This document shows, piece after piece, positions 23,332-53,696 of a stretch of DNA of 64,000 bases (its first letter is position 1; each line of letters opens with the position of its first letter). The notes under the pieces were generated by a model, which saw nothing but the letters and a program-made list of their open reading frames with translations, had not been told where the DNA came from and searched no databases. Source of the DNA: Mesorhizobium sp. SARCC-RB16n (GTDB lineage: Bacteria; Pseudomonadota; Alphaproteobacteria; Rhizobiales; Rhizobiaceae); assembly GCF_008520305.1 (NCBI RefSeq), contig NZ_ML703269.1, positions 248,001 through 312,000 of the forward strand. Direction: 5' to 3'. A program made the translations under genes and the position numbers.

Positions 23332-23664
23332 CTACGATGGCTCGCTCGACCCGCCATCGCGCACTAGCGTTTCATAGTCGCGACCGCCGTAGAATATGTT
23401 GACGATGTGCACGAGATCATTGTCCACGACGTAAGCGATAATGGCGGAGTGTTCGAATGGAACGGTTCGCAAGCCCGGCACGATGTCGTCACGGGATCGG
23501 CCACCGCGGGGCGCGTTGCCGATGCTCTGGCATCGGTCTTCGATCCGAAGAACGAATTTCAATGCGACCTCAGGACTGCCGCTGGCCTCGGCGATGTGCT
23601 TGAAAATGTCAGCGAGGTCATTCCTTGCGTCTTCTCGATAGTCGACCTCAAGCCGCCGAATCAT
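23332..23664 (-). CDS. RelE/ParE-family toxin
   Basis: Type II toxin of 110 residues. The order of motifs fits ParE: YREDARNDLADIFKHIAE at the N-terminus, GRSRDDIVPGLRTVPFEHSA in the middle and VDNDLVHIVNIFYGGRDYE at the C-terminus. ParE members inhibit gyrase and RelE members cleave mRNA; sequence alone favours ParE. Start at 23664 (MIRRLEVDY) overlaps the antitoxin gene by 17 bases; an upstream in-frame start would lengthen the overlap. It is downstream of its antitoxin, the normal order. Confidence 0.87.
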   Translation of the reverse strand: MIRRLEVDYREDARNDLADIFKHIAEASGSPEVALKFVLRIEDRCQSIGNAPRGGRSRDDIVPGLRTVPFEHSAIIAYVVDNDLVHIVNIFYGGRDYETLVRDGGSSEPS

Positions 23665-23938
23665 CGGCACGGCTCGAATACTGGGCGAAAAGCCCATGCA
23701 GATGAGTGCGAATCTCGTCTCCTGAATGGCTTGGCCTCGTATCTTCGATCGAAGCCTTCACGCGCGCCCGGATCGAGGCCATACGCTCGGCATGTTCCTC
23801 TTCTTCGCGCCGGAAGGCGCGAAGGGCAGCCCGGATCACCTCGCTCGCTGAGCCGAAAGAGCCATCCTCGACTTTTTCACGAATCATACGCGCCATGGCG
23901 GGTGTGACGGTGACGGATAGTTTCTCAGCGGATTCCAC
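23648..23938 (-). CDS. ParD-like ribbon-helix-helix antitoxin
   Basis: Antitoxin of 96 residues. The N-terminal ribbon-helix-helix (EKLSVTVTPAMARMIREKV, then GSFGSASEVIRAALRAFRR) binds DNA and autoregulates; the charged C-terminus (EEEEHAERMASIRARV) should bind the toxin. GTG at 23938 is chosen because AGGAG lies seven bases upstream; an in-frame TTG at 23959 is weaker. It forms a two-gene operon with the toxin. Confidence 0.85.
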   Translation of the reverse strand: MESAEKLSVTVTPAMARMIREKVEDGSFGSASEVIRAALRAFRREEEEHAERMASIRARVKASIEDTRPSHSGDEIRTHLHGLFAQYSSRADDSAA

Positions 23939-24011
23939 GTGTCGGCTCCTGCGGTGCAAAGTAGGATACTATACCATTTTACGCCCTGATCCAAACTGAT
24001 GTAGCAATCCG

Positions 24012-25424
24012 CTATTCTGCGGCCTCAGCCGTTAGTGCAGGTAGTCCCAGCCATTCGCGGCAGTCGGCCCGCGCACGCGACGTGATGGCATGACGCTTCG
24101 CTATCGTTTTGTCCTTGCCGCGCAGACGCTTGCCTTCGACTTTCTGCGCTTCAACAGGTGGAAACAGGCCGAAATTTACGTTCATCGGCTGGAAGGAACG
24201 CTTGCCCGGTTCGTCATCCGAAACGATATGGCCGCCGGTAATGTGGTTAAGCAGCGCGCCGAAGGCCGTGGTGAGCGGCGGAAGGGACGGTGCATGGCCA
24301 AGTCGTTCGGCGGCCGCGAAGCGTCCTGCGAGCAGGCCGATGGCCGCACTTTCCACATAGCCCTCGCAACCGGTGATCTGGCCGGCAAAGCGCAGGCCTG
24401 GGCGAGACTTCAGCTGCAGCGAGTTGTCGAGCAAGGTCGGGGAGTTGATGTAGGTGTTGCGGTGCAGGCCGCCGAGGCGGGCGAAGTCGGCGTTTTCCAG
24501 GCCCGGAATGGTGCGGAAGACACGGACCTGCTCGGCGTGCTTCAGCTTCGTCTGGAAGCCGACCATGTTGTAGAGCGTGCCCAGCGCATTGTCCTGCCGC
24601 AGTTGGACGACCGCATAGGCCTTTACCGTCGGGTTGTGCGCATTGGTCAGGCCCATCGGCTTCATCGGTCCATAGCGCAGCGTCTCGACGCCGCGTTCGG
24701 CCATGATCTCGATTGGCAGGCAGCCGTCGAAATAGGGCGTGCCTTCCCACTGCTTGAACTCGGTCTTCTGGCCGTCGACCAGCGCCTGCACGAAGGCAAG
24801 GTACTGGTCCTTGTCCATCGGACAGTTGATATAGTCCTTGCCGGTGCCGCCGGGCCCGACCTTGTCGTAGCGCGACTGGAACCAGCAGGTGTTCATGTCG
24901 ATCGTGTCGAAATGGATGATCGGCGCGATCGCATCGAAGAAGGCCAGCGCATCAGCGCCGGTCGCCTCGGCGATCGATTGGGCAAGCGATGGCGCGGTCA
25001 GTGGCCCGGTGGCGATGATCGCCTGATCCCACTCCGCCGGCGGCAGGCCGGGAACTTCCTCGCGCTCAATGGTGATCAGCGGGTGTGCTTCGAGCTTTTT
25101 CGTCACGGCGTCGGAAAAACCGTCGCGATCGACGGCCAGCGCGCCGCCAGCCGGCACCTGGTTGGCGTCGCCAGCACTCATGATCAGTGAGCCGGCGAGC
25201 CGCATTTCGGCATGTAGCAGGCCAACGGCGTTGTTTTCGGCGTCATCGGAGCGGAAGGAATTGGAACAGACGAGTTCGGCCAGTCCATCGGTCTTGTGGG
25301 CGTCGGTACCGCGAACCGGGCGCATTTCATGCAAGATGACCGGGACGCCGGCCTCAGCCGCCTGCCACGCCGCTTCGGAGCCGGCAAGGCCGCCGCCGAT
25401 GATATGGATTGGATTGTTGCTCAT
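24012..25424 (-). CDS. trmFO: Methylenetetrahydrofolate--tRNA-(uracil-5-)-methyltransferase TrmFO
   Basis: FAD- and folate-dependent enzyme that makes m5U54 in the tRNA T-loop. The 470-residue product begins [18 protein letters not shown], the FAD-binding motif, and contains [20 protein letters not shown] and [14 protein letters not shown], typical of TrmFO/GidA relatives. Start at 25424 was chosen; the frame stays open to 25868 across the small-RNA array, but that part is repeat sequence, not protein. The array of CCUCCUCCC hairpins ends about 75 bp upstream of this start on the same strand. Confidence 0.95.
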
Positions 25425-25510
25425 GGCGCCGGAATAATCGCTTGCCGCCGCGATTGCAATTGTCGCGCGCGCGAAACGCTGGTTGGGAAAGCCACCCCTT
25501 GAAACAACAA

Positions 25511-25623
25511 CACCCGCCGGGGGAGGAGGTCCGGCGGGTGTCGTTTTGGGGGTCGACCCTCGGGAGGAGGTGAAGGCCGACCGTATTCGCCATCGCCGGG
25601 GAGGAGGTCGGCTTTGACGAAAT
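25511..25623 (-). ncRNA. CcsR/cuckoo-type sRNA, unit 1 (three CCUCCUCCC hairpins)
   Basis: Transcribed on the minus strand. Three stem-loops present ACCUCCUCCC in the loop, complementary to a Shine-Dalgarno sequence; motif sites are 25521-25530, 25562-25571 and 25599-25608. The hairpin at 25511-25540 has a perfect 10-bp stem (CACCCGCCGG with CCGGCGGGTG) and a 10-nt loop. Repeated CCUCCUCCC loops downstream of a DUF1127 gene are the hallmark of the Rhodobacter CcsR RNAs and the wider cuckoo RNA family. It is the copy furthest from the DUF1127 genes. Confidence 0.75.
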
Positions 25624-25657
25624 TCTTTTCGCCACTTTAACGAGGGGCGAAGCCTCT

Positions 25658-25679
25658 GGGGCAAATTTCGTTTTGCCCC
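25658..25679 (-). other. GC-rich spacer hairpin between sRNA units 1 and 2
   Basis: GGGGCAAA and TTTTGCCCC form a stem with a small TTCG-containing loop. An equivalent hairpin separates units 2 and 3. No U-run follows on the minus strand, so it looks like a processing or protective 3' stem of the upstream unit rather than a canonical terminator. Confidence 0.5.
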
Positions 25680-25689
25680 GGGGAAACAA

Positions 25690-25803
25690 CGCCCGCCGCG
25701 GGAGGAGGTGCGGCGGGCGCCGTTTGGGTGGCCAACCCTCGGGAGGAGGTGAAGGTTGGGCCTATTCGTCATCGCCGGGGAGGAGGTCGGCTTTGACGAA
25801 ATC
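25690..25803 (-). ncRNA. CcsR/cuckoo-type sRNA, unit 2 (three CCUCCUCCC hairpins)
   Basis: Second tandem copy, about 180 bp from its neighbours. Motif sites are 25700-25709, 25741-25750 and 25778-25787, all ACCUCCUCCC on the transcribed strand. The hairpin at 25690-25719 has a perfect stem, CGCCCGCCGC with GCGGCGGGCG, that differs from unit 1 by paired substitutions. The middle hairpin uses GGCC/GGCC ends where unit 3 uses GGTC/GACC, so stem pairing is kept while sequence changes. Confidence 0.75.
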
Positions 25804-25836
25804 TCTTTCGCCGTTTTTAAAAGGGGCGAAACCTCT

Positions 25837-25858
25837 GGGGCAAAATTCGTTTTGCCCC
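25837..25858 (-). other. GC-rich spacer hairpin between sRNA units 2 and 3
   Basis: Perfect nine-base stem, GGGGCAAAA with TTTTGCCCC, around TTCG on the + strand (CGAA in the transcript). Counterpart of the hairpin at 25658-25679; probable 3' end or processing stem of sRNA unit 3. Confidence 0.5.
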
Positions 25859-25868
25859 GGGAAAACAA

Positions 25869-25978
25869 CGCCCGCCGCGGGAGGAGGTGCGGCGGGCGCC
25901 GTTTGGGTGGTCAACCCTTGGGAGGAGGTAAGGGCTGACCGTCTTCGCTTGGGTCGGGGAGGAGGTCGACCCAGCGAA
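25869..25978 (-). ncRNA. CcsR/cuckoo-type sRNA, unit 3 (promoter-proximal)
   Basis: First copy after the DUF1127 genes, starting within about 10 bases of the second stop codon. Motif sites are 25879-25888, 25920-25929 and 25957-25966. Stems are near perfect: 25869-25898 (10 bp), 25909-25940 (GGTCAACCCTT with AAGGGCTGACC, one mismatch) and 25944-25978 (TTCGCT and GGGTCG arms with one bulge). The third stem differs strongly from units 1 and 2 but still pairs, which argues for selection on RNA structure. Confidence 0.78.
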
Positions 25979-25984
25979 ATTCCG

Positions 25985-26125
25985 TTAGACAGCCCTGCGG
26001 GCGATGATCTTGATTTCGTCGCGGACGATACCGAGATCATGCAGCTGGCGGTTCGAAAGACGACCCAGCTCGGTAACCGTCTCGCGATAAACGCGCCAGT
26101 TACGATAGTTGCGGATCAGGTTCAT
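25985..26125 (-). CDS. DUF1127 small protein (second of tandem pair)
   Basis: Arginine-rich protein of 46 residues (begins MNLIRNYRNWRVYRETVTEL; ends KIIARRAV). The pattern LxxLSNRQLHDLGIVRDEI is the DUF1127 signature. The Rhodobacter protein CcaF1, also DUF1127 and encoded upstream of CcsR RNAs, is reported as an RNA-binding factor. A purine-rich AGAAGAG lies upstream of the ATG. About half its residues match the upstream paralogue, indicating local duplication. Its stop is followed almost at once by the first sRNA hairpin, so gene and RNAs are probably one transcript. Confidence 0.9.
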   Translation of the reverse strand: MNLIRNYRNWRVYRETVTELGRLSNRQLHDLGIVRDEIKIIARRAV

Positions 26126-26174
26126 TGTCGTTCTCTTCTTCTAAACTGGTTCGGACCATTCGCGGTCCGAAGAA

Positions 26175-26315
26175 TTAGACCGCCTTGCGAGCGACGTAAG
26201 GAATGTCGCTGCGGCTGATGCCGAGGTCGGTCAGTTCACGGTTGCTCAGGCGGCTCAGCTCGGACACGGTGTCACGGTAGCGGCGCCAGTTGCGGTAGTT
26301 GCGGATCAGGTTCAT
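26175..26315 (-). CDS. DUF1127 small protein (first of tandem pair)
   Basis: A 46-residue DUF1127 protein (begins MNLIRNYRNWRRYRDTVSEL; ends PYVARKAV). The core LSRLSNRELTDLGISRSDI is the standard family motif, closer to consensus than the downstream copy. An in-frame upstream extension is not family-like. Located 49 bp before the second DUF1127 gene; the pair and the sRNA array appear to form one stress-type operon. DUF1127 proteins are linked to RNA maturation and stress in alphaproteobacteria. Confidence 0.92.
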   Translation of the reverse strand: MNLIRNYRNWRRYRDTVSELSRLSNRELTDLGISRSDIPYVARKAV

Positions 26316-26366
26316 GGTAGTTCTCGTTTCGTCTTTCTTGCGGATCATTCCGTTTGTGTACGAACC

Positions 26367-26397
26367 ATAAATAGGGGGACCCATATCGATTTAAAAG
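26367..26397 (-). promoter_or_regulatory. Candidate RpoH-like promoter of the DUF1127-sRNA operon
   Basis: On the minus strand CTTTTAA (26391-26397) is followed after 15 bases by CCTATTTAT (26367-26375), itself preceded by C residues. This resembles heat-shock sigma (RpoH) -10 elements of alphaproteobacteria, though the -35 is a poor CTTGAA match. It lies about 50 bp before the first DUF1127 start. Inference only; the known CcsR operon is RpoHI/HII dependent. Confidence 0.35.
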
Positions 26398-26549
26398 CGC
26401 TATGGCTGCATGGCAGCAATGCAAATTGTGCAATGCAGCATTAACAAGCCTTCACGGACCTGACACAAAGAAGCCAGAATCAGAAAGTGCCGTGGCGTCA
26501 ATGGTTTGGCTGCGTCGGCTAAAAAGACGACCGGGTGGGGAGTGAGGAC

Positions 26550-27668
26550 ATGGCGGGGTACTCGACACGGCTCAGGGCCGACATTGAGCGATGGCGGCAG
26601 GCAGGGCTGATCGACGCCTCGACGGCTGATGTGCTGAGGCGCGACGTCGAGGTCAACGCCCGCCAATCGCTCAGCTTCGGCTCGATACTGGCGATGATGG
26701 CAGCGCTGCTCTTTGGGGCGGCCGTCCTGATCTTCGTTGCCGCCAATTGGGAAGCGATCCCGCGGCTGGCGCGGGTCGCCGCGCTTTTTACCATCATCCT
26801 TGCCGGCTATGTCGGCGGCGCGGTGCTGAAGACGCGTGACCATGCGGCAATCGGCGAAGCGCTCTGGATCGTGGCAGCGGCGGCTTTCGGCGGCTCGATC
26901 GCGCTGATCGGCCAGATGTACCATTTGTCCGGCGACGAGGCTTCGGCGCTGGTCACCTGGGGCGCCGGCACGGCTTTGGCGGCGGTGGCGTTACGCTCCA
27001 ACCCGCTGACCGTCGCGGCAGTCGGCATCGCCGACGCCTGGCTGTTCCTGAAAGGGTTCGACTATTATAGCCGTAGCGACTTTCCGCATGCCTTCGTCGG
27101 CATGGCGGTCGTGCTGTTTGCCGTCTCGTTCTGGACCCGCAGCCAGCCGGCGCGGCACCTGATCATCCTGTCGCTGCTCTTCTATCTCGTATTGCTGGCG
27201 ATGAACCACGCGACGCTGTCGGTGGCGATCCCGCTGGTCATCGTTTCGGCGCTGCTTTTCGCGGCTTCCGTCTTCGCACCGGAACCAGCCGACAGGATCG
27301 TGCAGCTCGGCGGCCGCTTACCCCTGCATGCGCTGCTCGGCTTTCTCACCGGCTTGGCCATCATCCAGTTCGAATTGGCCGATGAAAGCACCTATAACAG
27401 CGGCTTCACCATTGCCTCGGTGGTCGCACTCGCCGGCATCGTCGCGGCTATCGTGCTCGCAGGGCGCGAGAGCCGGGGGCTGCGCTGGCTCGCATATCTC
27501 GGCTTCGCCTTCGAACTCGCCATCATCTATGTCGTGACCTTGCAATCGATGCTCGATACGGCCGGATTCTTCCTGGCCGCCGCGGTGCTGCTCGGTGTGC
27601 TTGCGATCGTCATCATCCGCGTCGAAAAACGCATGAAGGGTCCAGCCACCGGGGGAGCCACGGCATGA
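26550..27668 (+). CDS. DUF2157 domain-containing membrane protein
   Basis: Polytopic inner-membrane protein of 372 residues. The soluble N-terminus (RADIERWRQAGLIDASTADV) is typical of DUF2157, followed by ten or more hydrophobic helices, e.g. ILAMMAALLFGAAVLIFVAA. Function of the family is unknown. ATG 26550 was chosen over an in-frame GTG at 26535, with GGGGAG just upstream. It overlaps the next gene by four bases; DUF2157 and GDYXXLXY genes are commonly paired. Confidence 0.87.
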   Translation: MAGYSTRLRADIERWRQAGLIDASTADVLRRDVEVNARQSLSFGSILAMMAALLFGAAVLIFVAANWEAIPRLARVAALFTIILAGYVGGAVLKTRDHAAIGEALWIVAAAAFGGSIALIGQMYHLSGDEASALVTWGAGTALAAVALRSNPLTVAAVGIADAWLFLKGFDYYSRSDFPHAFVGMAVVLFAVSFWTRSQPARHLIILSLLFYLVLLAMNHATLSVAIPLVIVSALLFAASVFAPEPADRIVQLGGRLPLHALLGFLTGLAIIQFELADESTYNSGFTIASVVALAGIVAAIVLAGRESRGLRWLAYLGFAFELAIIYVVTLQSMLDTAGFFLAAAVLLGVLAIVIIRVEKRMKGPATGGATA

Positions 27669-53457: not shown

Positions 53458-53696
53458 AAAGGCGTCTCCCGTAGTCCCTCTCTGAGGAGGAACGAGTTGA
53501 ACGGACCACGACCTTTCGGTGTCGGAAACTCGCCCCGTTTCCAGCCCCGTAAGCGGCGTGAACTCCCCGGCAAGGACAGTGGCGGTCGCCGCCTTGTCGA
53601 TACCGGACTGCCAGCATTATATATGGTCGTGCCGAGCGATTGAAAGACGCAACAACGGCAATCGCTGTTCGCTTGGCGGCGACGGATTGGAAAATA

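Follow-up and report, generated by a model that had tools for sequence, protein, structure and literature searches.

We found that the window, the whole 64,000-nt stretch of Mesorhizobium DNA analysed here, carries three tandem copies of the αr14 sRNA (NfeR1 family, cuckoo type) directly behind two short DUF1127 genes. In our view the array probably belongs to an operon of two DUF1127 genes, as its 3′ part: it would be co-transcribed with the genes and cut into sRNAs that act as anti-Shine-Dalgarno RNAs, with the copy number setting their dose. Unit 1 lies right behind a DUF1127 stop codon in 59 of 61 genomes of the genus and in the window, and an exact LsrB-type box is found in all 60 of these arrays, which together suggest a single LsrB/VtlR-driven precursor and not a promoter for each unit. 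The αr14 RNAs, the cuckoo RNAs and their association with DUF1127 (CIN1) are already published. The reading that leads from an LsrB box through DUF1127 to αr14, the genus-wide fusion and the chimera-like middle units may be new: a literature search, whose scope did not take in the 2015 cuckoo paper, found no paper naming both NfeR1 and DUF1127.

An Rfam scan of the whole window assigned RF02344 (αr14) to each of the three units at 90-94 bits over model positions 1-123, the gathering score being 58.8 bits, and reported no other family at the array. Besides the window, 10 of the 80 trmFO loci described below were scanned against Rfam. The array thus passes, with RF02344, the covariance-model check called for by the earlier note, which had read the region as a small-RNA array of CcsR or cuckoo type. 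The motif GGGAGGAGGT has nine exact copies, all on the plus strand between 25521 and 25966 and none elsewhere in the window; dinucleotide shuffling gives a mean of 0.04 copies, and 0 of 100 shuffles reach nine. When the minus strand is folded, ACCUCCUCCC is the exact 10-nt loop of nine strong hairpins, three in each 120-122-nt unit (Table 1), and for no unit did any of 200 shuffles fold equally well. Counting and folding confirm the nine copies and the three-by-three arrangement noticed from the letters alone, and the hairpin fold and the αr14 match support the proposed cuckoo type with anti-Shine-Dalgarno loops. The gene order DUF1127, DUF1127, RNAs also stands, both genes matching PF06568 on the strand of the RF02344 units. 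As for the extent first proposed (25501-26125), only 25505-25982 is RNA array; the rest includes the second DUF1127 gene (26125-25985).

Folding is strong on the plus strand too, though less distinct against shuffles (z -4.5, -2.8 and -4.7 for units 1 to 3, with 0, 3 and 0 of 200 shuffles as good); in the third unit its energy (-66.1) is lower than that of the minus strand. We nonetheless rejected the reading of plus-strand GGGAGGAGGT as nine Shine-Dalgarno sequences. The Rfam match is to the minus strand, the minus strand beats the plus strand against shuffles, and the exact loop motif is confined to the DUF1127/trmFO strand across the 80 trmFO loci.

Table 1. Features of the array and its surroundings, in minus-strand order (window coordinates)
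Feature	Position	Strand	Remarks
LsrB-type box TGCA-N6-GCAT (TGCACAATTTGCAT)	26419..26432	-	exact; 117 nt before shared DUF1127 ATG
VtlR-like motif CATTGCTGCCATGCA	26407..26421	-	2 mismatches to CAATGCAGCCATGCA; overlaps LsrB box by 3 nt
Promoter-like CTTTTA-N17-CTATTT	26369..26397	-	largely conserved among 60 arrays
First short DUF1127 gene	26175..26315	-	PF06568, 63.1 bits; 46 aa from shared start
8-bp hairpin between the DUF1127 genes	26150..26171	-	inverted repeat; fold z -2.3
Second short DUF1127 gene	25985..26125	-	PF06568, 56 bits; 46 aa; stop codon 2 nt before unit 1
GGAATTTCG at 5′ end of unit 1	25975..25983	-	candidate RNase E site
αr14 unit 1	25863..25982	-	RF02344, 93.7 bits; loops 25957-25966, 25920-25929, 25879-25888; fold -67.1 kcal/mol, z -9.0
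Spacer, units 1-2	25805..25862	-	58 nt; own hairpins; fold z -3.5
αr14 unit 2	25684..25804	-	RF02344, 89.7 bits; loops 25778-25787, 25741-25750, 25700-25709; fold -62.6 kcal/mol, z -7.1
Spacer, units 2-3	25627..25683	-	57 nt; own hairpins; fold z -3.3
αr14 unit 3	25505..25626	-	RF02344, 90.2 bits; loops 25599-25608, 25562-25571, 25521-25530; fold -63.3 kcal/mol, z -6.7
trmFO-type gene (GIDA family)	24012..25424	-	downstream of array; PF01134, 332 bits

The fold is maintained in relatives. Among the 65 strict units from the trmFO loci and the window, 58 have all three anti-Shine-Dalgarno motifs in hairpin loops of the minimum free energy structure and the remaining 7 have two of the three, while shuffling the letters outside the motifs placed three motifs in loops in 0 of 650 cases. 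For an alignment of 42 units RNAalifold gives 24 pairs, which belong to hairpins 2 and 3, and 20 of these 24 changed at least once on both sides; hairpin 1 is absent from this prediction, and the alignment has at least one badly placed row (L015). Cuckoo RNAs are defined by two to four hairpins in which a loop motif is conserved and the stems are not (PMC4504443). The array shows this hairpin number, the kept loop motif, variable stems and a short DUF1127 partner gene; the partner and the conserved-loop hairpins are common to it and to the cuckoo/CIN1 family as reported.

The closest likeness is to αr14/NfeR1 itself (Smr14C2 of Sinorhizobium meliloti), which is about 120 nt long, has three hairpins with CCUCCUCCC loops, is multicopy and has an LsrB-type motif in its controlling region. 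Unlike NfeR1, the copies here stand in tandem, joined to the 3′ end of the putative DUF1127 operon, and no ntrB target site was recognisable at the assumed ntrB start in 8 genomes. An NfeR1-like LsrB site with a sigma-70 promoter was not seen directly upstream of the units; a box and the promoter-like CTTTTA-N17-CTATTT lie upstream of DUF1127 instead. This leaves αr14 membership intact, since an own promoter is a feature of NfeR1 and not of the Rfam model.

To follow the arrangement beyond the window, we used 80 trmFO loci (81 with the window) and searched 61 genomes of the genus of locus L003. At least one strict αr14 unit is present in 41 of the 81 loci and none in 40. In 23 of the 41 the first motif lies less than 60 nt behind the sense end of DUF1127 (22 at 22-33 nt, L074 at 59 nt); in the other 18, αr14 is detached from the DUF1127 genes and lies upstream of them. 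Seventeen of these 18 loci carry titles of genera that we take to belong to the Rhizobiaceae, L016 being titled only Rhizobiales. Within the genus, 60 of 61 genomes have an αr14 match over the cut-off. Among the best 150 matches listed, runs of two units occur in 38 genomes, three in 19, four in one and single units in two, with no match for genome G040; an array of three units, which had been called unusually dense, is therefore common. Strict fused arrays are found in 59 of the 61 genomes (60 arrays with the window), array retrieval having left out G040, and their first loop motif follows the last DUF1127 sense codon by 22-27 nt (40 nt in one). A looser 61st array, L194 of genome G064, lies 26 nt behind DUF1127 and has a degenerate third loop. 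Genome G067 has, besides, a pair of units (L196) at the end of a contig, where the retrieved stretch contains no DUF1127 gene. In a class-wide sample searched with stricter filters, 1 of 190 genomes was over the cut-off, the reference genome itself, and 9 had matches at E <=0.001.

Spacing between units varies among relatives (unit spacings 130-226 nt). Aurantimonas sp. VKM B-3413 (L064, 2193-2687) carries a DUF1127 gene followed by four αr14 units with gaps of 5-6 nt; a T-rich tail is visible by eye on the last unit alone, as if it were the sole terminating unit. In genus array G043 the units are 9 nt apart. A GACGAA-N-TTCGTC repeat suspected from the spacers of relatives was dropped, the window having 0 matches even with one mismatch allowed.

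The first DUF1127 gene has a longest ATG frame that starts at 26384 and encodes 69 aa. Across the 60 arrays this longest frame measures 69 aa in 31, 57 in 14, 46 in 12 and 70, 75 and 78 in one each; as the frames vary and 12 of 60 arrays offer only the 46-aa start, we take the short start to be the common one. A stem-loop similar to the one between the two genes is kept in relatives, in some with altered letters (by eye). The trmFO-type protein is 91-96% identical in 8 loci titled Mesorhizobium, which marks the window as Mesorhizobium-like. On the same strand, a ParD/ParE-type toxin-antitoxin pair (23332-23959; PF03693, PF05016) is flanked by a fatty acid hydroxylase-type gene on one side and trmFO on the other. 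Elsewhere in the window, a THF-II riboswitch (53466-53504, minus strand; RF02977, 59.1 bits) lies just upstream of ORF 53457-52822, which resembles GTP cyclohydrolase I (folE) by eye.

The region before the first DUF1127 gene can be compared with the NfeR1 promoter. In PnfeR1 an LsrB motif of the same form, TGCA-N6-GCAT, begins at -72 (PMC10746234). From the box start to the -10 element we count 58 nt here, near the PnfeR1 distance, and the counterpart of CTTTTA-N17-CTATTT in PnfeR1 is CTTAGAC-N17-CTATAT. The exact NfeR1 -35 hexamer was not found upstream of DUF1127, where CTTTTA stands instead. Transcription would start near 26362. The overlapping motif CATTGCTGCCATGCA is the best of five matches in the window, at up to three mismatches, to the VtlR motif quoted in PMC12595884, with 2.68 expected. 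Taken alone the LsrB motif is weak, with 2 matches in the window where chance predicts 3.44. The box is exact in all 60 strict fused arrays, before the first DUF1127 gene, a count that does not amount to 60 independent observations because the species of the genus are closely related. Its neighbourhood is also largely conserved among the 60 arrays; the exact box is absent from the looser array L194. A relaxed motif occurs in 22 of the 23 fused trmFO loci, and 74 of 110 DUF1127 genes have a relaxed box in the 230 nt before them, where about 6 are expected at the 0.24 per kb found overall in those loci. Since many of these genes have no αr14, the box seems to be part of a general control of DUF1127, and αr14 here would seem to ride on the DUF1127-linked box and transcript.

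The best-surviving alternative, which we still judge unlikely, is that the αr14 units are independent genes, every one under a sigma-70 promoter of its own as in NfeR1, and that the DUF1127 genes are mere neighbours. NfeR1 does have its own promoter (PMC7143759, PMC10746234), αr14 stands apart in the 18 trmFO loci mentioned above, and of the 19 other αr14 copies retrieved from these genomes (L081-L099) none follows a DUF1127 gene, L100 being an array of the trmFO type. A relaxed LsrB box is found within 220 nt of 12 of 27 stand-alone units, that of L031 included. In Mesorhizobium, several stand-alone copies (L082, L084, L090, L092 and others) appear by eye to have in common a conserved stretch upstream that contains TGCA half-sites and may represent LsrB-type promoters of their own. 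At the array itself, individual promoters were searched for by box search, sigma-70 scan and codon conservation, and none was seen. Unit 1 starts 2 nt behind the stop codon and has no LsrB box there. A generic sigma-70 scan of 25400-26600 returned no promoter, neither at the units nor upstream of the DUF1127 genes, a result that also speaks against the promoter proposed in the operon reading. Near its end the fused DUF1127 gene is variable at several codons (share of the commonest, 38-70%), so that no conserved hidden -35/-10 pair is seen there. The gaps of 5-6 nt in Aurantimonas and 9 nt in G043 leave little room for promoters between units, and an LsrB box precedes the second gene in 0 of 10 closely spaced DUF1127 pairs.

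In the operon reading, transcription would most likely begin at a single promoter, activated by LsrB/VtlR and situated before the first DUF1127 gene, and the transcript would encode both short DUF1127 proteins and all three αr14 units. The precedent is the ccaF1 mRNA, from whose 3′ UTR CcsR1-4 are excised with RNase E (PMC8625941, PMC10253847). By analogy, the precursor would be cut, perhaps by RNase E, at A/U-rich stretches that precede the units; together with the terminator-like third hairpins, this would free RNAs about 120 nt long. Many fused linkers have a GAATTTCG-like stretch between stop codon and stem. A site of the RNWUU type occurs somewhere before the loop in 18 of 24 fused linkers. 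Each released RNA would show, in the computed fold, three identical ACCUCCUCCC loops able to pair with Shine-Dalgarno sequences and so block translation. A generic terminator scan found none at the units, its loop limit of 8 excluding these 10-nt loops. The terminator-like tails could also stop transcription before the later units, which speaks against the operon reading. In S. meliloti, northern blots reliably showed only one of the six αr14 copies (PMC7143759); expression of the array cannot therefore be assumed, and copies could be silent. Its transcription, processing and termination are all deduced here from sequence.

The earlier note had also matched the gene order to the Rhodobacter CcsR1-4 RNAs made with the DUF1127 protein CcaF1, a specific assignment that is not supported. 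A CcsR array in the strict sense, matured by a DUF1127 protein in the role of CcaF1, appears quite improbable. The likeness to ccaF1-CcsR1-4 of Rhodobacter sphaeroides is real: a DUF1127 gene is followed on the same strand by tandem homologous sRNAs, and DUF1127 with CcsR-like sRNAs has been named the CIN1 locus (PMC10253847, citing Reinkensmeier and Giegerich 2015). However, the curated family matched is αr14 (NfeR1), and the upstream site is LsrB-like, whereas the ccaF1-CcsR promoter is of the RpoHI/RpoHII type (PMC10253847). The Rhodobacter locus has four RNAs, for which interaction with Hfq has been reported (PMC8307010), in contrast to three αr14 units and two DUF1127 genes here; NfeR1 is Hfq-independent, and its chaperone, if any, is stated as an open question (PMC10746234). 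DUF1127 proteins are reported to act also via protein contacts (PMC12501420). By size alone, the second DUF1127 protein (46 aa) and the first (46 or 69 aa) do not differ cleanly from CcaF1 (71 aa). The VtlR/LsrB regulon of Brucella and rhizobia, with short DUF1127 genes, AbcR sRNAs and NfeR1, is alike in the VtlR/LsrB-like motif before the first DUF1127 gene; it differs in that the sRNA array here appears to ride on the DUF1127 transcript.

The three loops of NfeR1 redundantly silence ABC-transporter mRNAs and ntrB by covering their ribosome sites (PMC10746234), and the array likely shares this mode of action. That precedent also makes it very doubtful that the loops are a general decoy that titrates a protein or free RNA bearing Shine-Dalgarno sequences without pairing with chosen mRNAs, an idea for which the nine identical loops, the variable copy number and the rarity of perfect 10-nt sites before ATG can be cited. 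There are 12 such perfect loop complements in 8 genomes, 7 of which have one, compared to 1 in a reversed control; by eye most lie within other frames. Only two, in L129 and L136, resemble real gene starts (frames judged by eye), and hence we claim no target. In these two Mesorhizobium-type genomes, GGGAGGAGGTCA, a perfect loop complement, precedes the start of what looks by eye like a LacI-type regulator. A conserved ntrB target is not supported: no complementary 8-nt ribosome site was found at the dusB-ntrB junction in any of the 8 genomes, with ntrB identity and start assumed. That the array is a palindromic repeat family without RNA function is extremely improbable, although the spacers hold stem-loops too: strand and place are fixed relative to DUF1127 and trmFO and the loop motif is kept while stems change on both sides.

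The array also holds hints of how it may have grown. In unit 2 of the window, hairpin 1 is nearer to that of unit 3 and hairpin 3 nearer to that of unit 1. The 21 arrays of three or four strict units, that of the window among them, contain 22 middle units; in every one, hairpin 1 is closer to the last unit and hairpin 3 to the first, and in hairpin 2 the affinities are mixed. The middle units thus look like chimeras with a 5′ part from the last unit and a 3′ part from the first, the outcome expected of unequal crossover within an array of two units. Such crossover would alter the copy number and with it the dose. Selection by position, which would set hairpin 1 apart in the first unit and hairpin 3 in the last, could also produce the pattern, as could common descent of related arrays.

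NfeR1 has been reported to affect nodulation and nitrogen metabolism in Sinorhizobium, and in Mesorhizobium several copies of αr14 seem to be tied to DUF1127 genes with an LsrB/VtlR-like box. A speculative extension, to which we give little weight, is that one LsrB/VtlR transcript yields both the arginine-rich DUF1127 proteins and the αr14 copies, that DUF1127 is the partner so far lacking for sRNAs of the αr14/NfeR1 type, acting in their maturation or delivery, and that array length tunes the dose of anti-Shine-Dalgarno RNA relative to protein. If the operon reading is true, it would link short DUF1127 proteins and αr14 sRNAs, so far studied separately, and the question of a partner protein for αr14 would become directly testable.
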